NCBI RefSeq assembly: GCF_020405225.1
Contig: NZ_CP084473.1
Coordinates: 186,001-250,000 of the forward strand
DNA length: 64,000 nucleotides
Reading direction: 5' to 3'
Source of the DNA: Natrinema sp. DC36
GTDB lineage: Archaea > Halobacteriota > Halobacteria > Halobacteriales > Natrialbaceae
This document shows, in pieces, positions 4,254-22,173 of this stretch (position 1 is the first letter of the stretch; each line of letters opens with the position of its first letter). Made by a program: the position numbers and the translations under genes. The notes below the pieces were generated by a model that was not told where the DNA came from, made no database searches, and saw only the letters and a program-made list of their open reading frames with translations.

Positions 4254-4417
4254 GGATGTCCTGTGGGTCCATCCCTATCATATGAGCAGTTGTGTATATA
4301 GATTGTGTTACGTTCTATCATCCACCAATCGATATGAGTGACTGTAATTACCGCGTTTACGAAAAGCGTAGAATAACCGATGATCGGTGCGATACATACT
4401 ATTTCCGGCGACCCGCA

Positions 4418-5464
4418 CTACTCGAAGACGCCGTCGAGGAAGGGAAACTCCTCGTCGATATCGACCCGCTCCTCCCGGCGGCCGGACTCGTAGGCGGCCA
4501 TCGTCACGACCACTGCCTTGAGCCCGTCGTACACCGTCGCGGGCGGGTCGGTCCCCTCGACGATGGACTCGAGGAACGCGCTCCCCTTGCTCAGCCGGCG
4601 GCTGTAGCCGAAGTACGGGTCGCGTTCGGTCCCTTCGTCGTCGATGGTATAGCCCGTCCGGTCGTCCCACTCGCGGCCCTCGAGGTAGACTGCGCCCTCC
4701 TCATCCCAGATGTGGACGTGTTCGCGCGTCCGAGCGACGACGCCCGTATCGGAGACGTTCGCCATCGCACCGTTCTCGAACTCGATGTTGATAGTCGATT
4801 GCTTGTCGAATATCTGCTCGTCGTCGTGGAATTCGACGTTCGCGTTGACCTCGGTCGGCTTCAAGCCCGTCGTCCAGAGGATGGCGTCGATGACGTGGGT
4901 GCCCACGTTCAGCAGGTGGCCGCCGCCGCTGAGTTCCGGGTCCATCCGCCAGTCGTTCATATTCTCGTAGTATGACTGCCAGTCGTGAGTGATCTCCCCG
5001 GTAATGAAACGGGGATCCCGATCGCCGAGCGCCCAGCGCTCGCGGGCCATGTGGTAGGCGGGATTGAAGTGTCGCTGATAGCCGACCATCACGACGTCGT
5101 CGCTCTCCTCGGCACGCCGAGTCACCTCGTAGGCGTCCTCGACGTTCGTGGCGAGGGGCTTCTCGCAGAGCACGTGGAGGTCCGCGTCGAGGGCCGCAAG
5201 CGTCTGGTCGTAGTGGAGCCCGTTCGGCGTCGCAATGCCGACCGCATCGAGCCCTCCCTCTTCGATCATCCGTTCGTACTCCGTGTACTGGCCCGTCTCC
5301 GGAACGTCGAACTCCTCGCCGACGTCCGCCAAGGCCGCCTCGTTCACGTCCGCGAGCGCGACGAGTTCCGAGCCGTCCAGTTCGACGAACTGCTCCGCGA
5401 GCCGTCGTCCGAGGCTCCCGATACCCACCACACCGACAGTGATCGCGTCTGAGTCTCCGGTCAT
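4418..5464 (-). CDS. Gfo/Idh/MocA family NAD(P)-dependent oxidoreductase
   Basis: A 348-aa cytoplasmic dehydrogenase. The N-terminal Rossmann fold has the dinucleotide motif GVVGIGSLG (about 11-19). The family EKP motif follows (CEKPLATN near 104), and the C-terminal substrate domain has GGGHLLNVGTHVIDAILW, in which the GxxxxxxGxHxxD pattern supplies the conserved Asp/His pair. Members oxidise or epimerise sugars, sugar acids and inositols. Between a surface protein and polygalacturonase it probably handles a pectin-derived sugar or uronate, but the substrate cannot be read from sequence. The ATG at 5464 has an AT-rich box (CAACTATTTCC) roughly 26-35 nt upstream. Confidence 0.85.
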   Translation of the reverse strand: MTGDSDAITVGVVGIGSLGRRLAEQFVELDGSELVALADVNEAALADVGEEFDVPETGQYTEYERMIEEGGLDAVGIATPNGLHYDQTLAALDADLHVLCEKPLATNVEDAYEVTRRAEESDDVVMVGYQRHFNPAYHMARERWALGDRDPRFITGEITHDWQSYYENMNDWRMDPELSGGGHLLNVGTHVIDAILWTTGLKPTEVNANVEFHDDEQIFDKQSTINIEFENGAMANVSDTGVVARTREHVHIWDEEGAVYLEGREWDDRTGYTIDDEGTERDPYFGYSRRLSKGSAFLESIVEGTDPPATVYDGLKAVVVTMAAYESGRREERVDIDEEFPFLDGVFE

Positions 5465-5549
5465 TACCTGATACTCCGACAGTCAAAACGGAAATAGTTG
5501 TATGCTCACGGTCGGTACCTCGCCCTCGGCCGCTCGTTATCGATACCGC

Positions 5550-7085
5550 TCAGTTCTCGTCCTCGACGATGACGCCGTCCTCGGCGTCGATACCGGCCGC
5601 CAACGAGCCGTGATTGCCGGCGAGCGAGACGACGCCCTCGCCGCCAGCTTCGAGGAACGTTTCGGGGGACTTCGCCCCGTCGCAGCCGCTCACGACCGTC
5701 CGATCCACGTCCTGCAAGACGACGGCTGGGCCGGAGTCGGCCGTCACCTCGAGATCGTCGAAGGTCACGGATTCGGTTTCCTCGAACGTCAGCGCCGGGC
5801 CCTCGGGGGTCCGAATCTCCACGTTCGTAAACGAGATATCGTCGATGGACTTGCAGAACAGCCCGTGGCGCTGTTCGTAGTTGCTCGCCATCGCGGGGCT
5901 CAGATCGGAGGCGCCGAGATCCCGCGTTGCGTCGATTTCGACGTTGTCGAAACTGATGCCTTCGAAGTGCTGTTCGGGCAGGCCGGCCAAGAAGGCGGCG
6001 CTCTCCACGTCGCGGGCCGTGATGTCGTGGAAGTTTACGTTCCGGACCATCGGCGTCCCCTCGTCGACGGGGATCTCGTCGCTGTCGATGTCCATGAAGT
6101 AGTAGCCGTTGATGACGAACGGACACGCGACGTGGCGCATGACGATGGTGTCGAAGCGGAGGTCCTCGACGACGGCTCCCCGGTCGCGTTGGGTTTTGAT
6201 GCGGATCCCGCGGTCGGTGTTGGTGAACGTACAGTTCGACACCGTCACGTCGCGCACGTCACCGGACATCTCGCTCCCGATGACGACGCCGCCGTGGCCG
6301 GCCTCGACGGTGCAGTTCGTTACGGTGATCTGGGCGGCGGGGATACCGACCTCGCGACCCTCCTCGTTTTTCCCGGACTTGATACAGATGGCGTCGTCGC
6401 CCGCGTTGATGTACGAGTCACTGATGCGGACGTGCTGTGAGGAGTCGATGTCGATGCCGTCGCCGTTCGGCGCATCTGCTGGGTTCGCCACGTTCACGTC
6501 GTGGAGCGTGACGTTGTCCGAGTAGACGACGTGGGTGTTCCAGAACGGCGAGCGCTTCAGCGTCACGCCAGAGACGGAGACGTTCTCGCTGTCGTACACC
6601 TGAAACAGCGGGGGGCGGAGCGTGAAACTGCTCACGTCGTCTTCCTTCTCGTTTCGTTCGCTGAACTCGGCCAGTCGCTCTCGGAGTCCGTCGGGTATCT
6701 CCGACTCGTCGGCCTCGTAGAACTGCCACCAGTAGTCGCCCTGGCCGTCGATGGTTCCGCGACCCGTAATTTCCACGTTCTCGGCCTCGTACACCCGAAG
6801 ACACGGGTGGAAGCCGACCTGATCCCACCCTTCCCAGCGGCTCTTCGCGCTCGGGAACGCCTCGTAGTCGCGGACGAACAGCAGCGTCGCCCCGGCGTCC
6901 AGCTGGAGCGTCGTGTCGTCGCCGACGACTAGCGGCGCGCTCAAATACTCTCCGGGAGGGAGACGGACCGTTCCGCCGTTCTCGGCCGCCTCGTCGAGCG
7001 CCGACTGGAGTACCTCCGTGTCCCGTCGCTCTCCGTCGCCCGTCGCACCGCGTTGCCGTACATTGATACTGGCCGTAGATACCAT
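5550..7085 (-). CDS. Polygalacturonase-type glycoside hydrolase, GH28
   Basis: It hydrolyses alpha-1,4-galacturonosyl links in de-esterified pectin or rhamnogalacturonan. The GH28 signature residues appear in order: NGDGIDID (207-214), AGDDAICIKSG (228-238, the catalytic Asp pair), EAGHGGVVIG (261-270, catalytic-site His) and RGIRIKT (292-298). The 511-aa length is typical. There is no signal peptide, so it probably acts on oligogalacturonides inside the cell or leaves by an unrecognised route. The ATG at 7085 is preceded by a CTTATTC box at 7109-7115, consistent with leaderless expression. It is divergent from the secreted pectate lyase at 7236. Confidence 0.92.
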   Translation of the reverse strand: MVSTASINVRQRGATGDGERRDTEVLQSALDEAAENGGTVRLPPGEYLSAPLVVGDDTTLQLDAGATLLFVRDYEAFPSAKSRWEGWDQVGFHPCLRVYEAENVEITGRGTIDGQGDYWWQFYEADESEIPDGLRERLAEFSERNEKEDDVSSFTLRPPLFQVYDSENVSVSGVTLKRSPFWNTHVVYSDNVTLHDVNVANPADAPNGDGIDIDSSQHVRISDSYINAGDDAICIKSGKNEEGREVGIPAAQITVTNCTVEAGHGGVVIGSEMSGDVRDVTVSNCTFTNTDRGIRIKTQRDRGAVVEDLRFDTIVMRHVACPFVINGYYFMDIDSDEIPVDEGTPMVRNVNFHDITARDVESAAFLAGLPEQHFEGISFDNVEIDATRDLGASDLSPAMASNYEQRHGLFCKSIDDISFTNVEIRTPEGPALTFEETESVTFDDLEVTADSGPAVVLQDVDRTVVSGCDGAKSPETFLEAGGEGVVSLAGNHGSLAAGIDAEDGVIVEDEN

Positions 7086-7235
7086 GCCCCACCGTTCCAG
7101 TAGTGTACGAATAAGCGTTGTGCTGTGCCGTCAGTCGGCCGCCGCGGTCCGGTCCGGCCGCCCATATATTGGGAGGCTATTACACACCACAACCATTAAA
7201 GTAGGGCAGAAGCAACGTGCTGCTGAATATAAATC

Positions 7236-9374
7236 ATGGAGAATAATAGACGAACCTTCATCCGGACGATCGGCGTCGGCTCACTCGCCGGCCTCGCTGG
7301 CTGTTCCAGCCTAACTGGAGACGAGACGACGGACGAAAATCCAGGCGGGAACGGCGGGGACGGCCCCAAAATCATCACCATCGACGGAGCGGGAACCGAT
7401 ATCTGGAACACCGCCGACGCGGGACACTGGTTCTACACGCAGGTGAGCGGCGACTTCGACGTGCGCGTTCACTGTACTTCGATCGAGAACACGAACCCCC
7501 ACGCGAAAGGGGGCATCATGGCCAGAGCGAGCACGGAGCCTCGCGCGAAGAACGTCATGATCCGCCGCCGCCCGGGTTACGCGACGTCGCCGCAGTGGCG
7601 CCCCGAGAACGGCTCCTCGACGACGAGCACCACCTCCGAGGACGGGCAACCGCTCTCTCGCGTCGACGGCGGCATGTTCGACGGCAACTGGCAGCGCCTG
7701 GAGCGTAGCGGCGACACCATCCGCGCGTACGGCTCAGAGGACGGTGAGGAGTGGACGCTGGTCGCAGAGATTCCGTCGAACGTGATGTCGCTCCCCGACG
7801 AGGTCTCTCTGGGCCTCGCCGTGACGAGTCACGATCAGGCGAACGCCGCCACGGCCAAGTTCCGCGGCCTCGAGGGCCTCGACACGGCCGACATGACCAG
7901 CGAGGACCTCGGGAACCCGATCATCAAGGGCAGCGTCACCGTGAGCCAGCCGGCCGTCGTCAACCTCACCGAACCCGACACGTCGCCTACTGCGGCCTCG
8001 CTCACCGGCGAACTCGAGACCATGGGCGGTGCCGACGCCGTCGACGTCTCCTTCGAATACCGAGAGGCGATGTCCGACGAGTGGCAGTCGACGGACGTCA
8101 CGACCCTCGAGGAGACGGGCGAGTTCGGTTTCGACGTCTCCGGGTTAACGCCGCGTCGCTATTACCAGTATCGCGCGCACAGCGACAACGGTGAAGCGGA
8201 AATCAGCACGGTAAACCAACTGTTCTCCACGCCCAGCAACTCCAGCGGCAGTTCCGAGGAGGGTCCCCGGAGCGCCTCTCAGATCGACCCCGGTGACGGG
8301 TTCGCAGACGTCGCGCCGTGGCTCGACGATGACACGCCGCTCGTCGTCGTCAGCGAGCCGACTCGCGAGGAACTGGCCCGCGCGACGAATATCGCCGGTC
8401 CGCGCGTCGTCGTCTTCGAGACGAGCGGCACCATCGACCTCGGCGCGGAGGACCTGAACGTCCGGAACGATAACTGCTGGATCGCTGGCCAGACCGCTCC
8501 CTCGCCCGGCATCACGCTCATTCGCGGCGGTCTCTGGGTGTACGGCAACAACTCCGTCGTGCAGCACATCCGTGTCCGGCCCGGAGACGCCGGCCAGGAT
8601 GAGGGATGGCAGCCAGACGCTATCGAGATGGCCGACGACACCGAGGGGAACGTCATCGACCACTGTACCGGCACGTGGGGCGTCGACGAGAACATCAACG
8701 TCGGGTACGACACGAATGATTCGACGATCTCGAACTGTCTCATCGCGGAGCCGCTCAATGACGCGACTCACGAGAAGGGCGAGCACGGCTACAACTCGAT
8801 CGTCGGCAACAACGCGAAGAACGTCGCCCACGTCGGCAATGTGATGGCGCTCGGCACGGACCGGAACCCGCGCCTGAAGCAGGGGACCGAGACGGTCGTC
8901 GTCAACGACTACGTCCACTACTACGGCGACGGCATGTGGGCCGACCCCGACACGAGTCACGCCATCGTCGGCAACGTCTTCGAGGACCCGCAGTCCGACG
9001 AGGCCAACGTCTTCGGTGACGGGAGCGTCTACGCCGAAGACAACCTGCAGGCCGGTGACGGGAGCGTTGACATGATCGGCAGTAACATCACGATGCTCGA
9101 CTCCGAACCTCACTGGCCCGAGACCCTGGAGGCGCTCGACTCCAGTGCGGTAATCGAGCACAACCTCGCGAACGTCGGCGCGCGACCGGCTGACCGGACC
9201 GAGGACGACGAGCGTATCATCAGTGCCATCAGCAGCGGGGACGGCGGCGTCATCGACAGTCAGGAAGACGTCAACGGCTACCCCGAACTCGCCGAGAACA
9301 CCGAGGACCTCGGCGAACCCGAGAGCAACCTGCGCGCGTGGCTCCGCGAGGAGGCGCTCGCCGTCGAGGAGTAA
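7236..9374 (+). CDS. Tat-exported lipoprotein pectate lyase (PL1) with N-terminal accessory domains
   Basis: A 712-aa extracellular lyase. The N-terminus has a twin-arginine motif (NRRTFIRTIG) ending in a lipobox (LAGC), so the protein should be exported folded and lipid-anchored. Residues about 50-220 resemble a DUF1349/laminin-G-like jelly-roll (HWFYTQVSGDFDVRV), about 225-330 a fibronectin-III-like domain (VSGLTPRRYYQYRAHS), and about 345-690 a right-handed beta-helix of PL1 type (NCWIAGQTAPSPG, ARPADRTEDDERI). The tail repeats that of the partial gene at 2-682. An AT-rich element (CATATATT at 7162-7169, and ATTAAAG near 7195) precedes the start. It is probably the main surface depolymerase of the locus. 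Confidence 0.88.
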   Translation: MENNRRTFIRTIGVGSLAGLAGCSSLTGDETTDENPGGNGGDGPKIITIDGAGTDIWNTADAGHWFYTQVSGDFDVRVHCTSIENTNPHAKGGIMARASTEPRAKNVMIRRRPGYATSPQWRPENGSSTTSTTSEDGQPLSRVDGGMFDGNWQRLERSGDTIRAYGSEDGEEWTLVAEIPSNVMSLPDEVSLGLAVTSHDQANAATAKFRGLEGLDTADMTSEDLGNPIIKGSVTVSQPAVVNLTEPDTSPTAASLTGELETMGGADAVDVSFEYREAMSDEWQSTDVTTLEETGEFGFDVSGLTPRRYYQYRAHSDNGEAEISTVNQLFSTPSNSSGSSEEGPRSASQIDPGDGFADVAPWLDDDTPLVVVSEPTREELARATNIAGPRVVVFETSGTIDLGAEDLNVRNDNCWIAGQTAPSPGITLIRGGLWVYGNNSVVQHIRVRPGDAGQDEGWQPDAIEMADDTEGNVIDHCTGTWGVDENINVGYDTNDSTISNCLIAEPLNDATHEKGEHGYNSIVGNNAKNVAHVGNVMALGTDRNPRLKQGTETVVVNDYVHYYGDGMWADPDTSHAIVGNVFEDPQSDEANVFGDGSVYAEDNLQAGDGSVDMIGSNITMLDSEPHWPETLEALDSSAVIEHNLANVGARPADRTEDDERIISAISSGDGGVIDSQEDVNGYPELAENTEDLGEPESNLRAWLREEALAVEE

Positions 9375-9518: not shown

Positions 9519-11039
9519 ATGACTGTGCCTTCCGCGAGCGAGATCGTCGACGGCGTGCGGACTCACGTCGACGCGGTCCTCGAACACGCCCGCGACGACT
9601 ACGGCGACGAACACACGCCGTTGCTCGTCGACGCCCTCGAGGCGACGACGCGGACGGGCGTCGCGTACGACGGTCGCGACGTCGCCCACGGCCACCTCTC
9701 GAACGTCGCCCTCCAGCAGTCATTTCTGCGCGCGCTCGTCGGCCTGAGCGAGGTCACTGACGACGGAACGTATCGCTCGAGGGCCGACGATATTGTCTCG
9801 TGGACGTTCGATCACGCCACCGACGACGCCGGCCTGGTATACTGGGGCGGTCACGCCGCCTACGACCTCGAGGCCGACGAGGTCGTCGTCGGGAAGAGCG
9901 ACCACGAACTCAAGTTCGAGTACCCCTTCTACGAGTTCCTCTACGACGTCGCTCCGGACGCGACCCGCCAGTTCGTCGCGGCGTTCTGAAACGCTCACAT
10001 TCTCGACTGGGAATCACTCGATTTCAACCGCCACGGCGGCTGGAACGAGCCGATAGGGGACCTCTGGGATCACGAGTACGAGGGCGGCGACGTGTTCTTC
10101 TGGGGCGACGGCCTCACCTTCGTCAATACCGGCAGCGACCTCTACTACGCGGCCGGGCTGCTCGCCGAACTCACCGGCCAGGACGAACCCCTGGCGTGGT
10201 CGAAGCGACTCGCACACCGATACGTCGAGACCAGACAGGACCCCGGAATCAGCGGCTATCAGTTCAGCCAACACGCGAGTTACTGTAACGGCCCCGAAAT
10301 TCGCGGGGACCGGGCCCAGTACCAGTTCGCACCGTACATCCACGGCGATAACCGCATCTTCGAGGGGACGCTGTTCCGTCCCCGTCCCATCGTCCAGCGC
10401 CAGCAGTTGGCGCTCGCCGAGCGATTAGGGGAGCGCGGAACACCGTTCGGCCGATGGGCGATCGAGGAACTCAGGTCATGGCGCGAGGCCGCCTACCGGC
10501 CCGCCGAAAACGAGTTCGAGCCGATGCTCACGGACGGGTTGAGTCTGGACGGGTTCGTCGTCCGCCGGGAGGGGTATTTCGGTCCGAAGGGACGGGTCAT
10601 CGGCCCCATCGAGGCCGGCCCGGACTTCCTCTGGACGTACGCTCGCGCGTATCGGGCGAGCGGCGACGACCTGTGCCGGGCGACGGTGCGGGATATCGCC
10701 ATCGGCCTCGGTCTCGGCGACATCGGTGCGCCGCACGAACAGCCGGCGCTCGAGTCCGATCCGATCCCTGACGCCGTGGGGCCGGAGCTGCTGTGTGCGC
10801 TCCTCGAGTTGTATCGGGCGAACGGTGACGACGCGTATCTCGACGCTGCAGCCCGGGTCGGCGGTCGCCTCCTCGCCGAGCGGGAGAACGGCCTGTTCAC
10901 CGACGACGCGGGTCGGGCGGTACTCGATGACCTGACGCCGCTCGCGCTCCTCCGTCTCGCCGTCGCGCTCCGCGGTGACTCCCTCGACGCGCTTCCGACG
11001 CCCGTCGGTGACCGAAGCACTCCGACGGGTGGTGTGTAG
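9519..11039 (+). pseudogene. PL2-like exopolygalacturonate lyase interrupted by an in-frame TGA
   Basis: Two reading frames, 9519-9989 and 10092-11039, lie in the same frame and are separated by a single TGA at 9987-9989; translation continues cleanly across it (AAF, stop, NAHILDWESLDFNRHGG). Together they give about 505 aa without export signal, resembling PL2-type exo-polygalacturonate lyases ((alpha/alpha) barrel; FEYPFYEFLYDV, SDLYYAAGLL, WSKRLAHRYVETR). From memory the family has Trp at the stop position (FWxAHxxDW), so a TGG-to-TGA change is the simplest explanation. The downstream half could be expressed from GTG 10092. Family call is moderate; the broken state is seen directly. A sequencing error or readthrough is also possible. 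Confidence 0.6.
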
Positions 11040-11120
11040 CACGCCCGTGGCGACGCATCGTCGTCCGGATATGCAGAACGGGCCCGAGGAATTTATGTGA
11101 GTGCGAACTACTGTCGAAAT

Positions 11121-12365
11121 ATGCGCATCACAGACGTTGGGGGATTCGCCCTGTCGTCCCCGATAGACCCGTCACAAGACCGAGACTTCCACGGCGGCAC
11201 CCGTCGTCTGCTGAAACGCGACGTCGTGCTCGCCGTCGTCGAGACCGCCAGTGGACTCCGCGGGGCCGCGACAGCGGGCGCGACGAGTTCCGCGATGCGA
11301 GAGTACTTCGAGGGCGACTCCCAGGGGACCTTCGCCGACGTGCTCGAGAACGAAGTCGCCGCCGCGCTCGAGGGGGAGGAGATCGACGAGATCACTGACG
11401 CCCACGACCTCGTCGAGGCTACTGCCCTTCCCGACCGCCTCGAGACGAAGGCCATCTCCGCGATCGACGTTGCCCTGTACGACATTCGGGGGAAGGAGCT
11501 GGGAACGCCAGTGTACGAACTTCTCGGAGACCAGTACGAGAACCCCCCGGAACCCACCACTGACCTCCCGCTCTACGCCAGTTCAGGGATGTACATGGAA
11601 CCGAAGGAATTCGCCGAGCAGGCCGGCTACGTCGAGGAAGCCGGCTTCTTCGGCTACAAGTACCGCCCCGGGATCGGTCCCGATGCCGACCGCCGAACGA
11701 TCGATCTCGTCTCGGAGGCGCTCGACGAGACCGAGATGATGCTCGACTCGCACACCTGGTGGAAGCTCGAGGACAGTTACGGCGACGAGACCGTCGACGA
11801 CATCGTCGCGTACGCGGACGAAAAGGGCGCGTACTGGGTCGAAGAACCAGTCGCACCAGACGACTACGCGGGCTACGAACGCCTGGCGGAGACCGGCGCA
11901 GCGCTCGCGGGAGGCGAGAGCGAGGCGTCACCCGACGGGTTACTTGCGCTCGGCGAGACGGGCGCCGTCGACTTCCTGCAGGGCGATGTCCGCCACCACC
12001 GCGGCTTCACCGGCTGCCGGCGCGCGATCGAGTTCTGTCGCGGTCGAGACGTCGAATTCGTCCCGCACAACTTCGGTACCTGGCTTGGCCTGCTCGCGAA
12101 CGCTCACCTCGTCGCCGCCGCACCCGAAGTCGACCTCGTCGAGTACCCAATTTTTGAGGACGATCCGCTCGTCGACGCCTCGGGCGACCCCGGAATGTAT
12201 CCGTTTGATCTCGCATTCGACATCGTCGAGGGACGGCCACCGGTCGAGAACGGTCGGCTCACCGTTCCCGACGAGCCAGGACTCGGTATCGAAATCGACC
12301 TCGACGTCGTCGAGGAGTACCCGTTCATTGAGGGGCCGTGGACCGAATTCCGCTACGAGTCGTAG
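11121..12365 (+). CDS. Mandelate racemase/muconate lactonizing enzyme-like sugar-acid dehydratase (enolase superfamily)
   Basis: It is predicted to abstract a proton alpha to a carboxylate, most likely dehydrating a sugar acid to a 2-keto-3-deoxy acid. The enolase-superfamily layout is visible: an N-terminal capping domain, then a barrel with KYRPG (Lys), MMLDSHTWW (Asp metal ligand), WVEEPV (Glu ligand), ALAGGESE (Glu ligand) and FVPHNFGTWLG (His). The ATG at 11121 is chosen over 11097 because TTTATG at 11092-11097 then sits about 26 nt upstream. As the last gene before the island it could feed 2-keto-3-deoxy acids to the kinase/aldolase at 25107-26776. Substrate is not determined. Confidence 0.85.
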   Translation: MRITDVGGFALSSPIDPSQDRDFHGGTRRLLKRDVVLAVVETASGLRGAATAGATSSAMREYFEGDSQGTFADVLENEVAAALEGEEIDEITDAHDLVEATALPDRLETKAISAIDVALYDIRGKELGTPVYELLGDQYENPPEPTTDLPLYASSGMYMEPKEFAEQAGYVEEAGFFGYKYRPGIGPDADRRTIDLVSEALDETEMMLDSHTWWKLEDSYGDETVDDIVAYADEKGAYWVEEPVAPDDYAGYERLAETGAALAGGESEASPDGLLALGETGAVDFLQGDVRHHRGFTGCRRAIEFCRGRDVEFVPHNFGTWLGLLANAHLVAAAPEVDLVEYPIFEDDPLVDASGDPGMYPFDLAFDIVEGRPPVENGRLTVPDEPGLGIEIDLDVVEEYPFIEGPWTEFRYES

Positions 12366-13228
12366 CGACTGCAGGATCACCGATGAGGGATCGTTTCAGG
12401 TCTTGTAATCTGATAGGAACATTTCTTCGCCGTGATGGCGGCAATCTGTTCCCTCTTGGGGAACACTACTGGGCCGTATTACTGCTGCTGGTCCCTCTTT
12501 AGTCAGACGGCAGCGAGCCGCGGTAACCGATACGTTCTCATTTCGCCGAGAATCCGCGACTCCTTCTGGCCAGTCGGTAACGGTCGATTCAATTCCGCTA
12601 CTGTCCAGAATACGTCTGGTAACCGAGAGGGGTTCCGTTCGATCCCTGTGCTTCAGCAGGGCATAGCCAACGTTTGCGAACGTGATCGACCGATTTCGGC
12701 CGACCCGACGTGTGGAATGGACGGGGGTGGAGAAACAAGCGATTCGGGACAGGAGAACGAAAATTGGGTTTAGCGCTGCCATAGAAGAAACGACCGCTTC
12801 GAGGACCCCGCAGTACGCTTTATGACGTTTGTTGTTCGTTGGAACGTGATCCGAAAGCTTACCAAATGTTTGGATCTTGAAAGCTTGGCTCGGCTGAATC
12901 CCGCGATTTAAGGGATCGCTCGTCGCCGGAGAACGGTAATTTCTCATCTCGTGATGCGTTCCCGAAGGGGGAACGGACCAAAAGCTTTCAGTAAACCCGA
13001 CTGGAAGGGGTGATGGCCCTACTAATTTACATCCATATTACTGTAAATCGGGCTCCGTCGAAATCAGCTGCTATCGAACGTGCGGGCGAATGAAATCGGA
13101 ACAGAATTCATTAGTCGTTGATAGGAAACAAGCAGAACCGAGTGTGTGGCGATGCCTCCGCGACCACGATTATGGATCAGAACAAGGCAGAACGGTATGA
13201 TAAACGGCTCTTCGTCCGTCCTCGCTGA
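12366..13228. other. Intergenic stretch without a recognisable gene
   Basis: About 860 bases. An open frame on the minus strand (12396-12947) has no recognisable family and low-complexity composition unlike neighbouring haloarchaeal proteins, so I do not call it. A small hairpin (gttccc/gggaac, 12958-12974) is followed within 40 bases by the 13-mer ccgactggaaggg, which recurs at 18637. An imperfect palindrome (atttaca ... tgtaaat) lies at 13026-13049. The stretch may be decayed mobile DNA. Confidence 0.4.
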
Positions 13229-15187
13229 TCAGATGTCCGTGATAATGCCGGGGTCGCCGTTGATGGCCTGTGCGTCCTCGTCCAGCAGTGCCACGACGAG
13301 ATAGGGAACGTGCGTTTCGAAGTACTCGACGAGCGCCGCGATCCGCTTGGAGTCGATCGCTTCGAGGGAGTCGAGCAACATGAACGGGACCGTCTCGTAC
13401 ACGTCGTGAACGAGATAGCCGGCTAACGCGAACACAAGTCCGGTCACTTCTCGTTCGCTTTCGCTCAGATGGTCGATCGTATCCTCGTAGGCCGCACCTT
13501 CGTCAGTACTGCGGACGACCTTGAGATCGAACGACGACTTCGAGACTTTCTGGCGCCCGTCACGAACCTCTCGACTGGTCTGATCGATCCAGATCCGATC
13601 GAGATTGTCGTAGCCGAGTGACTCACGGAGGTTCTCCATGTGTTCGTTGAACGCCTCGACCGCGTCCGCTTCGATCTGACCGATCCGCATGCGGAGATCC
13701 GTCTGTTCGTCTGTTACGTCCTCGCGGCGCGCTTTGAGCTTCTCCCGCTCACCGAGTCGCTCTTCGATCGTAGCGATTTCGTCTTCGATCTCGTCGCGCT
13801 CCCGTTCCTTGCGTTCGAGTTCGAACTCGAGTTGGTTGACCTCCTTGTGCTGGTCGAGAATTCCACTGTACTCTTCGGTCTCGAGCTCGTCAATATCGGT
13901 CTCGAGTTCGTCGATTTTGTCGGTAAGGGATTCGCGCTCGTCCGTCAAGTCCTCGATTCGGTCGCTCCGCCGCTCGATCTCGTCAGTGGTCGACTCGAGG
14001 CGCTGTCGCGTCTGACGGTATTCGGCCCGGTTTTCGTTGATCGCGGAGCGCGTCTCCCGCCGATCCTCGAGATCGGCGCTGATCTCGGATCGCTCTTCGA
14101 GTCGCTCCTGTCGGACGGTTCGGAGTTGTTCGAGCGTCGTCTCGATCTGTTCTCGAGCGACCGACGAACCGCAGGTCCAACACGTGACCGTCTCGGCGTC
14201 GGCGAGCAACCGATCCGTCACTGGTCCGTCGTCAGTCTGGCCGTCGTCTGCGAGGACGGAGTCGGGCTCGTCGAGGAGTTGCTCGTTGAACTGGATCGTG
14301 CTCTGAAGCTGTGAGATCTCTTCGGAGAGATCTGCTTTCTCCGCCTGGAGCGTCTCGATCTCGGCTTCGATACGGCTAATCTCGGTCTCGTCACCCGCCG
14401 AGAGCGATTCGAGTCGGTCCTCAATCTCGTCCCGTTCTTCCTCCAGTGCTTCGATACTCTCGCGCTCGGTCTCGATTCGATCGCGAACGCGCTCGAGTTC
14501 GGACTGCGTGTCGCGTAGTTCTCCGAGTTTCGTTTCGAGCGTGGACTGCTTCTCTCGTCGCTGTTCGACATCGACGTTCGTCTCTTCGAGTTCCGCTCGA
14601 GCCGTCTCGAGTTCGTCCCGTAGCGTCTCGATCTCGTTCGTTATCCGCGTTCGCTTTGCCTCGAGATCGGGGAGCCGCTGGTCGAGCGTTTCCAGTCTCT
14701 CGAGTCGCTCGTCGAGCTCTCGTTTTCGTTGTTCGTACTGTTCGATTTCGGCCTTGATCGCGGCAGTATCGATCGGCCGCATGATCAACTCGCGAAGATC
14801 GTCGCCGCGAGCGACGGCTTGCCGCGCCTCGTTGGATTCGAGCAGAAAGGCGAACAGATCCGCAATCTCCGGGTCCGCTAAGTACGGGTCGCCCTCGGTG
14901 GCGATCGCTCCGGCTCGCCGTTCGAGCCGCCGCCGATAGATCTCGTTTCCGAACTCGAGTGTCACGCTTCCGTCGTCGGCATCTGCTTTGAGACTCACTC
15001 GATCGCTTCCGAGCGCTGCCATGATCGCCTGTAGCAGTGACGTACGGTTAGTCGCGTTTCTTCCTGAGAGAATCGTCACCCCTTCCTGAAAAGAGACTTC
15101 CGCCTCGTCGATACCGCCGATATTGCTGACAGAAAGCGTTGCTTCCTTCGGGATGTCGTGTGTCTTCTCGTCCACGCTACTTGCCAT
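13229..15187 (-). CDS. Archaea-specific SMC-related protein with zinc hook and degenerate ATPase motifs
   Basis: A 652-aa Rad50/SMC-like coiled-coil protein. The N-terminal globular part contains ILSGRNATNRTS (39-50) where a Walker A would be, but the GK[ST] lysine is absent. Long coiled coils (about 145-300 and 345-520) flank a CWTC zinc-hook-like motif (Cys336, Cys339). The C-terminal globular part has LSESEREVTGLVF in place of the ABC signature and FMLLDSLEAID in place of Walker B. This gene type is typically paired with rdfA, as here (119-nt gap, same strand). It may act in chromosome or cell-shape control by dimerising rather than by normal ATP hydrolysis. A damaged paralogue lies at 31884-33083. 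Confidence 0.85.
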   Translation of the reverse strand: MASSVDEKTHDIPKEATLSVSNIGGIDEAEVSFQEGVTILSGRNATNRTSLLQAIMAALGSDRVSLKADADDGSVTLEFGNEIYRRRLERRAGAIATEGDPYLADPEIADLFAFLLESNEARQAVARGDDLRELIMRPIDTAAIKAEIEQYEQRKRELDERLERLETLDQRLPDLEAKRTRITNEIETLRDELETARAELEETNVDVEQRREKQSTLETKLGELRDTQSELERVRDRIETERESIEALEEERDEIEDRLESLSAGDETEISRIEAEIETLQAEKADLSEEISQLQSTIQFNEQLLDEPDSVLADDGQTDDGPVTDRLLADAETVTCWTCGSSVAREQIETTLEQLRTVRQERLEERSEISADLEDRRETRSAINENRAEYRQTRQRLESTTDEIERRSDRIEDLTDERESLTDKIDELETDIDELETEEYSGILDQHKEVNQLEFELERKERERDEIEDEIATIEERLGEREKLKARREDVTDEQTDLRMRIGQIEADAVEAFNEHMENLRESLGYDNLDRIWIDQTSREVRDGRQKVSKSSFDLKVVRSTDEGAAYEDTIDHLSESEREVTGLVFALAGYLVHDVYETVPFMLLDSLEAIDSKRIAALVEYFETHVPYLVVALLDEDAQAINGDPGIITDI

Positions 15188-16809: not shown

Positions 16810-17551
16810 GGCACTGTCTAGTTCTGTACCTCCTCGATCGGCGTCTTTCCATCGAGAGCTTGATGCGGTCTCTGATGGTTGTAGTAATGCATAAACTTTT
16901 CAAGCCACCCGCGGACGCTCGACCGACTGCCCACCCACGAATTATGGAAGCGGTCGATACGCATTTTGAGGGTGTGAAACCACTTTTCGATGAGGTTTCG
17001 GTCGGTATAGTTGATCTGACCGCTCAATCCTAATCGAGCAAGGGCAGTCCGATAGCCGAATTGATCAACGAGAAACTCAACATCCGAGAGATCGTGTTTC
17101 TCGGTGAGTCGATGGAGAAACGCAGCCGTCGGATCGGTGCCATGCCGCCCAAATAACGCAACATCGAGAATCAACTTTGTCTCGATGCCTATTGCAGCGT
17201 ACAACCAAGACCATTCGCCGTTAATCTTGACAGCGGTTTCGTCAACGGCGACCCGCTTCGGCTGCGCCTCAGGCGGGTCGCGTCCGCTGTCAGCTAGCCG
17301 ATGAACCCAGTTCCAAACCGCTCCGTGAGATCGTTGAACGCCTAATTCCGCTAAAATCGTTGTTGTCTCCCGAAGCGAACAGCCGGTCTGATGGAGGCGG
17401 ACGGCGAACGCCCTGACGCCCGTCAGTCCGCTCATTCTCCCAAGATTCTTCAAAATCCGGTTCATAGCTCTCGCTGAGCAGGTCTGCGAGCATCTAACCA
17501 ATTCACTCAACCATCTGCTCACTTCTCAAATTGACTCAACTAGACAGTGCC
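16810..17551 (-). mobile_element. IS6-family insertion sequence (742 bp)
   Basis: The ends are a perfect 14-bp inverted repeat, ggcactgtctagtt at 16810-16823 and its complement at 17538-17551. The flanks (ttgctcac and ggccgcgg) do not match, so there is no target duplication, which suggests recombination after insertion. It holds one transposase frame (16818-17522). A 5'-end fragment of a close copy lies in the same orientation at 21981-22173. Confidence 0.85.
16818..17522 (-). CDS. IS6-family transposase, N-terminus probably frameshifted
   Basis: A 234-aa DDE transposase with RVAVDETAVKING (first Asp), FLVDQFGYRTA (second Asp) and RNLIEKWFH (Glu). The ORF's first ~30 residues are not homologous to other copies. 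The expected N-terminus (MLADLLSESYEPDFEESWEN) is encoded in another frame at 17435-17493. Comparison with the fragment at 21981-22173 shows that this copy lacks 2 bp near 17423 (gcggactgacg versus gcggacggcgacg), which shifts the frame. The DDE core is complete, so residual activity from the alternative start cannot be excluded, but the copy is probably damaged. Confidence 0.75.
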   Translation of the reverse strand: MSRWLSELVRCSQTCSARAMNRILKNLGRMSGLTGVRAFAVRLHQTGCSLRETTTILAELGVQRSHGAVWNWVHRLADSGRDPPEAQPKRVAVDETAVKINGEWSWLYAAIGIETKLILDVALFGRHGTDPTAAFLHRLTEKHDLSDVEFLVDQFGYRTALARLGLSGQINYTDRNLIEKWFHTLKMRIDRFHNSWVGSRSSVRGWLEKFMHYYNHQRPHQALDGKTPIEEVQN

Positions 17552-18006
17552 GGCCGCGGATGTCGAATATTGGGATAAAATTTTGGAAGTGATTAGTCAA
17601 ATACCGACTGAGCAATATTTGGATTCGGAATCACTGTAGGAGGCAGTCAAACGAAAACAGAGGTCAGTACGCGTGTCTTGTTATCAGCCTCTTCGAAATC
17701 GTCTACCTGAATGAAAGAGGAGAGACCGCTGCAAATGCCCCTAAGGGGGCAAGGTAATCTTGCGGCGCGCAGAGCGCGCGCCGCGCTTGCGAAAAATTTG
17801 GCCGGCCGATATTGGACGTTACAACGGTGCTACCCCTGGGTAGTGAAGAGTGGTACCTCGATAATCCACCTTGCCGGGTCTGCTTAGGACGGGAGACGAG
17901 ACCTCAAGCAGCTGTATCTAAGGCCAAGGTCACAAATTACCGCCCCGCCGCTGGTAGGGCAAGCCGAAATAGAGGGTAAAGAGGAAGCACCAATATAAGA
18001 TGGTTT
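17552..18006. other. Intergenic stretch with a strong GC hairpin
   Basis: No gene was recognised. A perfect 9-bp stem (gcggcgcgc/gcgcgccgc) with a 5-base loop lies at 17762-17784, just after a palindrome (gcccctaagggggc). The composition of the surrounding DNA is AT-richer than the chromosome average. The minus-strand open frame at 17884-18129 crosses the end of the element at 18007 and is not supported. Confidence 0.45.
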
Positions 18007-18722
18007 GGCTCTGTTGAAAACATATTCTTCAGAGCATTTTAGCGTGAAACTAATACTCACTACACGTGCGTATTGATCGCTGTTTAATAGGAAGAACAGA
18101 TTGAGATTTGACCGAATGTAAGCTAACATAACAAAGCATTTAACCTATCTTTTCGTAGCTGGAATTATGGGGATCACCCGCCGGAAGGCACTCCTGCTTG
18201 GAGGCGGTCTTGGAATGTCAACGCTTTCGGGATGTGCTAAACTGCCGTTCGTCGGTCCACAACTGACGTTAACGCTTATGAACTTTGATTCGGAACCACA
18301 TTCTCTCAATGTTGAGATACTCCGAGCAGAAGGTGGCGAACGAAGCGAGTCAAGAGTTTTTCAAGAAAATTTTAAGCTGCCACCGCTGGAAGAAGATGGT
18401 GCCGACAATACGGTACAGGAGTCCGATGTTCTCGAAAGTCGGAAATACGCTGTTCGCGCGAACCTGAGAGAGAATGAATCAGTGCGGGAAAAGTACCTCT
18501 TCTATCCCGATTGTACTGGTAATGATGAACCAGATGAAGAACTCTATATTGAGGTTAACAGGGAAGAGGAGGATGAAGAACCCTATATCAAGTTCCAGCA
18601 AAATTGGTGTGGAAGTGATTCGTGGTGGTTCTGAGTCCGACTGGAAGGGACGTTAACTATGCTTCCTGTACTTACCGCAGAGGGTGCCAGACCTATCATG
18701 TTCGAAGGATTTCAACAGAGCC
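18007..18722. mobile_element. 716-bp transposon-like element without transposase, flanked by 8-bp direct repeats
   Basis: The left end ggctctgttgaaa (18007-18019) and the right end tttcaacagagcc (18710-18722) are a perfect 13-bp inverted repeat. Immediately outside is an identical 8-bp sequence on both sides, gatggttt at 17999-18006 and 18723-18730, as expected for a target-site duplication. The interior has no transposase; it contains only the lipoprotein gene at 18167-18634. Eight-bp duplications are typical of IS6-family transposases, so it may be moved in trans. The intact duplication argues for a single, fairly recent insertion of the whole unit. Confidence 0.85.
18167..18634 (+). CDS. 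Small Tat lipoprotein carried by the 716-bp element
   Basis: A 155-aa exported protein with the twin-arginine motif TRRKALLLGGG and a lipobox (LSGC) at about residue 22. The mature part resembles the beta-rich small haloarchaeal lipoproteins (LTLMNFDSEPHSLNVEI) and ends with a cysteine-containing tail (FYPDCTGND, FQQNWCGSD). No catalytic motif is visible. Codon use is AT-richer than the flanking chromosomal genes. Its 5' region, with AT-rich promoter-like sequence (ttatct near 18148), lies inside the mobile element, so it can be expressed wherever the element lands. Function unknown. Confidence 0.75.
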   Translation: MGITRRKALLLGGGLGMSTLSGCAKLPFVGPQLTLTLMNFDSEPHSLNVEILRAEGGERSESRVFQENFKLPPLEEDGADNTVQESDVLESRKYAVRANLRENESVREKYLFYPDCTGNDEPDEELYIEVNREEEDEEPYIKFQQNWCGSDSWWF

Positions 18723-18802
18723 GATGGTTTCTATATGTCAATTAGGTCTCCAGAATCCTAATCTCTGAAAGATTTAATTATGTGGGTGAAGTATCATCTG
18801 TT

Positions 18803-19123: not shown

Positions 19124-19295
19124 ATCAATCCTCAAGTTTCCCTCCCTGGGGTTGCACGTCGACAAATCCCGTTCCCCGAATATGCACACGAGCTGCGACT
19201 CGTCATGTGCATATCTCGAGTCGATCCGTTGTTCGAGCCGTCGTTCGTATCTGGATAGCCGATACGTTCCGACGTTTGGACCGAAATAGGTTGTT

Positions 19296-19590
19296 CAGTG
19301 AGCCAAAAAGCTAGGATTTCGGGGGTCGTGTGTACGAGTACGCGAATCAGGACTGAGACTACGCATATCAACGAGACGCGATCGAAGATACAGCTGACTT
19401 CTACAACTGCAACAAGACGAAAGCGGTGGTGAGTGCCTGCGACGACATTCCGAAGTTCGTCCAAGTGTCCCGCCAAGTCCTTGAGCACGACGACCTCACA
19501 CTCGAGCAACGCCGGGAGATCGCCGAGACGCTGTCGACGCGAGCGGTGACCTTCGAGGCCAGTACCGAGATCGTCACCGAAACCGCGTGA
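19296..19590 (+). pseudogene. C-terminal fragment of an unrecognised protein with an in-frame stop
   Basis: The frame reads RVYEYANQD, a TGA near 19354, DYAYQRDAIEDTADFYNC and then an uninterrupted acidic tail (CDDIPKFVQVSRQVLEHDD, EIAETLSTRAVTFEAS) ending at 19590. The coding-like periodicity is clear, but there is no start and the 5' part is missing. The stop probably replaces a Trp codon (QDWDY). I do not recognise the family. Confidence 0.5.
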
Positions 19591-19839
19591 GTGTTTCCCT
19601 CAGTACTGGTTGCTGTCTGCGAGTAAGTGTACCGCTTGGGTTCGATGTCTCGAGAAACGCCTGCCAGAGACCGGCGTTAGAGCCCCCACCCTCACGTGGT
19701 GTGTCAATTGGGGGAAGCTGCCCGAAATTTGGCACCGATATCACGGAGCCTTCTACTGGACCCTGGAATCAACTAGTGGTGTTTATCGCCCCAGAAGTGG
19801 TGAAGGGGCTGATCAGTTGTCCTCTTCGGAGTTATCGAT

Positions 19840-20517
19840 GGCAACGAGAGACATCTACACGACGACGTTTGACGAAAGCGTTCAGACGACTACAACTACC
19901 TGTCAGACTGTGGCGGCAGCGTTCGATCGACTGACCGCGAGACGATCTGTGAGGACTGTGGACCTATCCTCGAGGACACCAAACTAGACCGAGGACCAGA
20001 TTGGGGTCGACATGACGAGCAGGGATCCAAGAGACGGACCGGCGCTCCGCTGACACCGACACGCCACGATCGAGGCCTCTCCACCGAGATCGGGTACAAG
20101 CAAGACGGACATGGAAACGCCCTCTCGAACACGAAGCGCCGACAATTGAACCGGTTGCGTCGCGAACAGTCCCGTGCCCAATGGCAGTCGAAAGCCGAAC
20201 GGAACCTCGCCTACGGTCTCAGTGAAATCCGGCGGATCGTCGCAAGTCTCGGCTTCGCACAGAGTATCCGGGACCAGACATGTTCGCTCTTCCGAACTGC
20301 ACAGTCTGAACGGCTCTGTCGCGGACGATCGCTCGAGGCCGAAGCCGTCGGGTACATTGTCGGTCGGTATTTCGGGCTGGACACGAGCGGGTCAGCGTTT
20401 TACCTCGCTGCATGGGAGGGCGAAGAGTCGGAGGCTATCCTCGACCGACTCGAGCGGATCAGTTCGGCCGCTCAGGAGATTATCGACGCCGTCAACAAGG
20501 TGGGAAACAATGAGTGA
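19840..20517 (+). pseudogene. Chimeric remnant: transcription factor B N-terminus joined to ArdC-like C-terminus
   Basis: The first part is an archaeal TFB: MATRDIYTTTFDES, the zinc ribbon (CEDCGPILEDTKLDRGPDW), the B-finger region (SKRRTGAPLTPTRHDRGLST) and the start of the first cyclin repeat. A one-base loss near 19906 separates the start from the zinc ribbon. At about 20344 the sequence passes in frame, through LEAEAVGY, into the C-terminus of an ArdC/antirestriction-type protein (VGRYFGLDTSGSAFYLAAW). The second half of TFB and most of ArdC are gone. The junction looks like a deletion or recombination between two genes with similar short sequence. Confidence 0.7.
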
Positions 20518-21218: not shown

Positions 21219-21457
21219 TTATCGCATTCGGCCCTCGTCATAATAAAACACGTCTGTAAGTCCAAGGTCGAGACCGGATGCCGAATAGACGGTGAGCAGA
21301 TCGCCGGCTTCGATCTGCGTACTCCCTTTAGGCGTGATCGACGGGTCTTCTCCCTCACGGCCGATTGCGACGATAAGGACATCATCGGGGAGCAGATCCT
21401 CGTCTGCTTCCTCGATGAGTGTCTTCCCGTCGATCGGCGCATTCCCGGTGACCTGGC
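21219..21457 (-). pseudogene. C-terminal RCK_C (TrkA-C) domain fragment
   Basis: The minus strand reads VTGNAPIDGKTLIEEADED, LLPDDVLIVAIGREGEDP and GDLLTVYSASGLDLGLTDVF before a TAA at 21219-21221. This is the ligand-binding RCK_C domain found at the end of K+ transport regulators and related permeases. The coding sequence stops abruptly at 21458, exactly where a ggctctgttgaa transposon end begins, so insertion or deletion by a mobile element removed the 5' part. Confidence 0.65.
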
Positions 21458-21469
21458 TCTGTTGAATTC
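21458..21469. repeat. Solo end related to the 716-bp element's terminal repeat
   Basis: ggctctgttgaa at 21458-21469 matches 12 of the 13 terminal bases of the element at 18007-18722. It abuts the truncated RCK_C fragment. No partner end was found up to 22200, so the rest of this element is lost or too diverged. Confidence 0.5.
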
Positions 21470-21571
21470 CTCACTAGTTAACAAGTTCTATAAGGAATCG
21501 GGAGGTACAGAACGCATAGTCGCCGTTGAGTATTCAATCATAAACTCTACGGAACGTCGTAGCACTTCTTC

Positions 21572-21980: not shown

Positions 21981-22173
21981 TGTTGTCTCCCGAAGCGAAC
22001 AACCGGTCTGATGGAGGCGGACGGCGAACGTCCTGACGGGCGTCGCCGTCCGCTCATTCTCCCAAAATTCTTCAAAATCCGGTTCATAGCTCTCGTTGAG
22101 CAGGTCTGCGAGCATCTAACCAATTCACTCAACGACCTGCTCACTTCTTAAATTGACTCAACTAGACAGTGCC
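21981..22173 (-). mobile_element. 5'-end fragment of the IS6-family element
   Basis: About 193 bp nearly identical to 17361-17551, ending in the same terminal repeat (aactagacagtgcc, 22160-22173). It keeps only the start of the transposase (MLADLL..., TATPVRTFAVRLHQ) and is in the same orientation as the full copy. It carries the intact reading frame where the full copy has lost 2 bp. With 16810-17551 it brackets the AT-rich island. Confidence 0.8.

Follow-up and report, generated by a model that had tools for sequence, protein, structure and literature searches.

The window, which is the whole stretch of 64,000 nucleotides from Natrinema sp. DC36 analyzed here, contains with high probability a mobile insertion cassette (MIC), composed of a gene for a Tat lipoprotein between the "A" and "B" ends of an insertion sequence (IS) of the IS5 family that generates 8-bp target site duplications (TSDs). 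Judged by sequence comparison, the element has precise ends and a TSD, the same end types were present in ISs of the same genome that encode an IS5-family transposase, and there were many relatives without a transposase. By the same comparison, an identical cassette was located at unrelated sites in two families, and two insertions had empty sites and several unrelated cargos. Taken alone, the element in the window would be an archaeal MIC; the more interesting result is its family, in which the cargo seems to have been replaced in situ.

Structure of the window element and its lipoprotein gene

The element comprises 716 bp and is bounded by a perfect inverted repeat of 13 bp (13/13 bp), with GGCTCTGTTGAAA as the left terminal repeat at positions 18007 to 18019 on the plus strand and its reverse complement as the right one at positions 18710 to 18722 on the minus strand. 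An exact direct repeat, GATGGTTT (8/8 bp), flanks it at positions 17999 to 18006 and 18723 to 18730, without strand assignment, and the element plus its duplications covers positions 17999 to 18730 in the order GATGGTTT / GGCTCTGTTGAAA ... TTTCAACAGAGCC / GATGGTTT. Both repeats had been noted in a previous, sequence-only reading of this DNA and are present as given there, and so is the sole gene inside, one long open reading frame (ORF) at positions 18167 to 18634 on the plus strand. It encodes a protein of 155 amino acids (aa), which begins with MGITRRKALLLGGGLGMSTLSGC and carries a twin-arginine motif and a lipobox. No transposase was found within the 716 bp by the list of ORFs or by Pfam/NCBIfam, and a search of the region in Rfam yielded no match.

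The repeat structure was evaluated against all exact 13-bp inverted pairs located less than 2 kb apart in the window. An exact 8-bp flanking repeat was present in only 1 of these 21 pairs, that of the window element, and in none of the 138 inverted pairs from 20 Markov shuffles. The 13-mer of the inverted repeat, with up to 1 mismatch, occurred 33 times in the whole genome compared to 0 occurrences of the reversed control. This indicates that the structure is not the result of chance.

The 13-bp repeat is the mere tip of longer ends: other loci share about 70 bp with the left end (B-end) and 57 bp with the right end (A-end). When the genome was searched with the element, its last 58 bp and its first 70 to 85 bp were found at other loci without the middle part. 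Alignment of the recurring ends resolved two distinct modules: the A-end, which has 57 bp (GGCTCTGTTGAAATCCTTAGAACATGATAGGTTTGGCACCCTCTGCGGTAAGTACAG), and the B-end, which has about 70 bp (GGCTCTGTTGAAATCCTATTCTTCAGA...GTGAAAC...). The B-end module of the window element (about 70 to 75 bp, positions 18007 to 18080, plus strand) is of the type located 3' of the transposase gene in the cognate ISs. The A-end module of 57 bp (GGCTCTGTTGAAATCCTTCGAACATGATAGGTCTGGCACCCTCTGCGGTAAGTACAG, with GCGGTAAGTACAG as its inner part) occupies positions 18666 to 18722 on the minus strand. An unpaired A-type-like end (GGCTCTGTTGAATTCCTCACTAGTTAACAAGTT...) at positions 21455 to 21510 of the window is apparently what remains of another element belonging to this group.

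As in a MIC, inverted IS ends enclose a passenger gene without a transposase, and the TSD has the length of that of the cognate IS. Mobilization in trans, the other property of a MIC, would be indicated by an identical transposase-less element in two families and by empty sites for two other insertions. With 716 bp and an intact gene for 155 aa, the element differs from a miniature inverted-repeat element (MITE), which is short and non-coding.

The lipoprotein matched no Pfam or NCBIfam family. Homologues with about 40% identity were present in other genomes of the genus, and their inspection for element ends gave no matching pair; a scan of genome contigs with the lipoprotein revealed no relative. 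Homologues without element ends would be expected if the ends had captured a gene of chromosomal type. A start typical of a Tat lipoprotein was encoded in seven elements, those of the window, L144, L154, L161, L214, L269 (positions 4750 to 5631), and L156. Lipoproteins are thus a recurrent cargo, yet one class among many. The sequence-only reading had regarded the lipoprotein as an unexpected peculiarity and had asked if it was always the cargo, which is not the case: kinases, regulators, enzymes, and other products are encoded between such ends, and the cargo is highly variable. At L061 (positions 9844 to 10353) in the window's own genome, an A-end is followed by a different Tat lipoprotein gene (147 aa), for which the second end was not found.

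Two other repeated sequences are located close to the element. At positions 17668 to 17901, there is a repeated sequence of 160 to 230 bp that many genomes of the genus contain with about 70 to 92% identity, for the most part on their chromosomes; it had no match in Rfam. Positions 19144 to 20339 match regions annotated as genes for TFB (transcription initiation factor IIB) and are present in several Natrinema plasmids with 80 to 94% identity in different contexts.

The transposase probably acting on the ends

The genome of the window also contains a 1177-bp IS, which shares the 13-bp ends of the window element exactly, has the 8-bp TSD GAATTTCT, and carries an intact gene for a DDE transposase of 273 aa (L058, positions 169 to 987), preceded by an A-type end and succeeded by a B-type end. 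The assignment to the IS5 family came from NCBIfam model NF033579 (transpos_IS5_2), with 208.7 and 201.1 bits compared to a cut-off of 140; a second copy of the transposase gene in this genome was 91% identical. Full-length ISs with the same ends, for which the sequence-only reading had proposed to search, do therefore exist. Together with the missing transposase gene in the window element, they agree with its description there as a minimal cargo transposon, presumably mobilized in trans.

The TSD has a length of 8 bp in the window element as well as in the IS5-family IS of its genome. An IS5-family transposase acting in trans is therefore the likely helper of the window element, which does not encode one itself, in contrast to its autonomous partner. 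Concerning the ends, the B-ends of the IS elements shared 70 to 87% identity with the best-matching cassette B-end. Between the A-ends of the cassettes and those of the sampled ISs, a good match was confined to the outermost 20 bp or so, and the identity over 57 bp was 56 to 63%. This similarity of the A-ends in their outer part only means that the best helper may be another, unsampled IS5 subtype.

The sequence-only reading had proposed an IS6-type transposase instead. IS6 elements likewise make 8-bp duplications, and a complete-looking one is located about 450 bp upstream of the cassette, at positions 16810 to 17551 of the window (transposase gene at positions 16818 to 17522, minus strand). 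Its ends of 14 to 15 bp, GGCACTGTCTAGTT, are unlike GGCTCTGTTGAAA, and the ISs that do possess the ends of the window element encode an IS5-family transposase. None of the complete elements bounded by GGCTCTGTTGAAA and a TSD had an IS6 transposase as its only one; in L170, where an IS6-like gene lies between such ends, an IS5 transposase is present as well. An IS6 transposase belonging to the ends of the window element was not found. Due to the different ends of the neighboring IS6 element and the IS5 transposases of the ISs with matching ends, the proposal is unsupported, and mobilization of the cargo by an IS6-family transposase has hardly any probability left. A near-identical fragment of the IS6 element is present at positions 21981 to 22173.

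Relatives of the element and the probable exchange of their cargo

To count as complete, an element had to possess both 13-bp ends and the 8-bp duplication with no more than 1 mismatch, and the regions around A-ends were scanned for these. About 50 complete elements were found in haloarchaea and 0 in the reversed-sequence controls. Approximately 35 of the 50 carried cargo without an IS5 transposase. The remaining ones were ISs with a transposase, ISs plus passenger genes (L060 and L169), or very small, and small members such as L215 (262 bp) and L233 (241 bp) fit the definition of a MITE. An A-end on one side and a B-end on the other were assigned to 40 of 45 elements, a few with marginal scores; most scores were far above 6, the 99th percentile of random 60-mers. 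A model of the A-end matched 25 of the 29 genus genomes (E ≤ 1e-3). Model R1 of the A-end matched 47 of the 125 genomes of the family in 17 of 29 genera, and 110 of the 391 Halobacteria genomes, representing 33 of 86 genera and several families (both E ≤ 1e-7).

The cargo assigned by Pfam included PAS-histidine kinases (L136, L158, and L230), a PAS protein (L225), an AsnC-type HTH protein with DUF7344 (L135), BAT-HTH_10 (L223), HalOD1 (L140 and L234), cupin (L139), alpha/beta hydrolases (L152 and L163), a pyridoxamine-oxidase-like protein (L060), SCO1/SenC plus YtkA (L144), an acyltransferase (L154), and a PQQ beta-propeller (L240). A response regulator in L141 and an Mrr-like nuclease in L260 are likely cargos as well, judged from their translations alone. 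Counting one TSD per shared site, 36 different TSDs were present in 36 elements. With the exception of a weak bias for a purine at the start and a pyrimidine at the end, they were unrelated, which argues for a loose choice of the target. Elements with the same ends and other 8-bp flanks, the first thing that the sequence-only reading had suggested looking for, do exist. The opposite outcome considered there, a lack of further copies and of any IS sharing the ends, did not arise. Elements of 124 bp in L056 and L071 possess similar 13-bp ends that fit neither the A- nor the B-type and were excluded from the family. Those in L205, at L260 positions 4049 to 4988, and of 127 bp in L263 and L265 have the ends TGCTCTGTTGAA / GGCTGTGTTGAAT, represent other ISs or MITEs, and were not counted.

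Movement without an own transposase was visible in two cases. A transposase-less element of 417 bp with a gene for a 64-aa membrane protein showed 0 differences in 417 positions between two families (f1 and f6), with its copies located at unrelated sites with the different TSDs TCCTGGTC and ATTCACGG. A HalOD1 cassette of 438 bp was present at three sites with three TSDs in two genera, with 88 to 90% identity. An empty site for the window element, as sought by the sequence-only reading, or a second copy was not present in the 29 genus genomes or the PLSDB plasmids. Evidence for movement of the window copy comes therefore from its own TSD and from its family, and we infer from both that this copy may be mobile. 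A region apparently shared with Natrinema SYSU A 869 proved to consist of the element ends and a separate repeated block downstream, and the flanks of the chromosomal hydrolase element L152 were too divergent to reveal an empty site.

Alternatively, the window element could be a decayed IS or MITE, a host gene that came to lie between two ends by chance and no longer forms a mobility unit. Several ends in the genome are indeed unpaired remnants, and the window cargo has no second copy. The perfect 13-bp repeats and TSD of the window element, its intact sub-terminal modules, and the movement of sister elements with the same architecture make such a decayed state very improbable compared to that of a functional cassette.

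At two plasmid sites, cassettes with different cargo occupied the same position. Site 1 was represented by six TSD-complete elements in five genomes with homologous flanks, about 85 to 96% identical over 300 bp on each side and, between L148 and L150, 94% identical over 4.9 kb. The duplication was GAATACGT; in L153 and L233, one of its copies had changed. The ends of these elements were closely related and the middle parts unrelated: L148 contained a gene for a small membrane protein, L150 for a 248-aa protein, L153 for a 139-aa membrane protein, L155 (and also L167) a 45-aa ORF, L161 a gene for a Tat lipoprotein, and L233 no cargo. A further occupant, L156, encoded a Tat lipoprotein of 409 aa and had the flanking repeats GGACACGT / GAATACGT. 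Conservation ended sharply about 64 to 71 bp into the B-end and 57 to 60 bp into the A-end. In L251 and L254, the site was unoccupied, with a single and diverged copy of the target.

Site 2 involves the end subfamily of the window element itself. The ends of its occupants were 92 to 95% identical to one another; compared to the ends of the window element, the aligned parts were 89 to 96% (A-ends) and 86 to 91% (B-ends) identical. The B-end of the window element was 88% identical to that of L135 over 75 bp and 86% to that of L136 over 71 bp, and its A-end 96% to that of L135 over 57 bp. With the duplication TCTCGATT, some copies of which differed by one or two changes, this site harbored a cassette of 1398 bp with the Lrp and DUF7344 genes in what is presumably Natrinema sp. 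SYSU A 869 (L135), a histidine kinase cassette of 3501 bp in a presumed Natrinema zhouii plasmid (L136), and a response-regulator cassette of 688 bp in another presumed N. zhouii plasmid (L141). In a third such plasmid, the B-end was followed by other genes, and no A-end was found. An exact empty site with a single TCTCGATT was present in L279 (...GTCTTAGTCTCGATTGTACCATTTGGG...).

At both plasmid sites, occupants with unrelated cargo thus share one insertion, its duplication, and its end sub-type, and relatives have empty sites. This suggests that the cargo was replaced between conserved ends, so that an exchange in place may be assumed for sites 1 and 2. Different cargo at the same site would also result if elements had inserted there several times independently, the site being a preferred target. 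ISs can prefer targets, and the TSDs display the weak purine-pyrimidine bias, but 36 different TSDs in 36 elements do not agree with a strict preference. Moreover, the site 1 occupants compared were all in the same orientation and the six TSD-complete elements formed one clade with common substitutions and a support of 1.0 in a tree of the ends, which is indicative given the short alignment; the ends at site 2 were, as stated, 92 to 95% identical. Independent insertion is thus unlikely as an explanation, and replacement of the cargo remains the preferred one. In a related observation, ISH3D in one Halobacterium plasmid and ISH3B in another were located in an identical sequence context (PMC10264941).

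The following sequence of events may explain these data. An IS5-family transposase would bind to the ends in trans and move the cassette by a cut- or copy-and-paste process, with the ends persisting as transposase-binding modules. For replacement of the cargo in place, homologous recombination would be the most likely route, with the ends of about 60 to 75 bp of the incoming cassette recombining with those of the resident one; onward transposition may sometimes follow such a replacement. In the case of the window element, the ends would have acquired the chromosomal-type lipoprotein gene before insertion into the plasmid-like contig.

Comparison with known elements

Haloarchaea are known for a frequent exchange of genes, and dedicated vehicles for single accessory genes in these organisms are, to our knowledge, poorly described. 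The family described here would be a concrete vehicle for this gene traffic, with sensor kinases, regulators, lipoproteins, and enzymes as freight. The entry of new cargo between conserved ends becomes testable, and annotation would gain, because such cargo now looks like isolated plasmid genes. In integrons, unrelated genes are likewise exchanged as cassettes at one fixed position flanked by conserved modules. In the present family, these modules consist of transposon ends accompanied by a target duplication, and no integrase or attC site was noticed. As a wider and tentative interpretation, which we consider possible, the IS5-family ends could form a gene-cassette system across the haloarchaeal class, in which the A- and B-ends evolve apart from the cargo and resident plasmid cassettes act as fixed slots with a repeatedly replaced content, as a functional counterpart of integron exchange without an integrase.

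MIC231 and the modular IS231 elements (IS4 family) of the Bacillus cereus group have IS ends around passenger genes, and the cognate transposase can activate them in trans (PMC3129680, which cites the MIC231 papers; PMC2266710 for the modularity of IS231). They resemble the window element in their modularity and in the replacement of the transposase by a passenger gene; they differ by their IS4 ends, duplications of 10 to 12 bp, and occurrence mainly in Firmicutes from the archaeal family with IS5-family ends, 8-bp duplications, a wide range of cargo, and replacement at fixed sites. While MICs are known from bacteria, a class-wide archaeal family with in situ replacement of the cargo is provisionally regarded as new: in a literature search of limited coverage for haloarchaeal elements with passenger genes or cargo, no account of the A/B-end family was found.

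The nearest case found in haloarchaea is ISH2 of Halobacterium, a transposase-less MITE with termini related to a full IS, which is mobilized in trans by ISH8 (PMC10264941) and contains a short ORF for a non-transposase protein (PMC3119063). Unlike the family of the window element, ISH2 has ISH8-type ends, 10-bp duplications, and one short ORF, and no exchangeable cargo has been described for it in these sources. MITEHsal2 from Halobacterium salinarum 91-R6 has a length of 411 to 413 bp and TSDs of 8 and 6 bp (PMC10264941); compared by description only, its length and one of the duplication lengths would fit a small member of the family. Duplications of 8 bp are also made by ISH1 of Halobacterium (PMC10264941). 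The family shares these with haloarchaeal IS5-family ISs, and its autonomous partners, in contrast to the window element, encode the NF033579 transposase. Judged from the 8-bp TSD, these partners possibly belong to the ISH1 group.

Transporter ISs (tISs) of the IS1595 family carry passenger genes unrelated to transposition (PMC3129680). They keep their transposase, in contrast to the window element and most of its relatives, and are resembled by L060 and L169. The transporter-IS-like element in L060 (positions 4678 to 7829, 3152 bp) is an IS5-family element with a Tat multicopper oxidase gene as passenger beside the transposase and a perfect 8-bp TSD, GAACGATT; its end types scored weakly. An element of 3.7 kb in L263 (positions 9764 to 13449) has two A-type ends and a perfect TSD, ATGTGAAT, and contains an IS5-type transposase gene as well as one for a Tat-type protein. 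In L164 (positions 4545 to 6195), two B-ends and the TSD GAAATAGA bound what is apparently a cassette linked with an intact IS, with an A-end in the interior; the whole could be a composite moving as one unit. Two genomes have the same element at a common site (L257, positions 2616 to 6054, and L258, positions 822 to 2847), with flanks that were 99.7 to 100% identical; the L257 copy is longer by a segment that includes an ORF of 437 aa and is possibly a nested IS.
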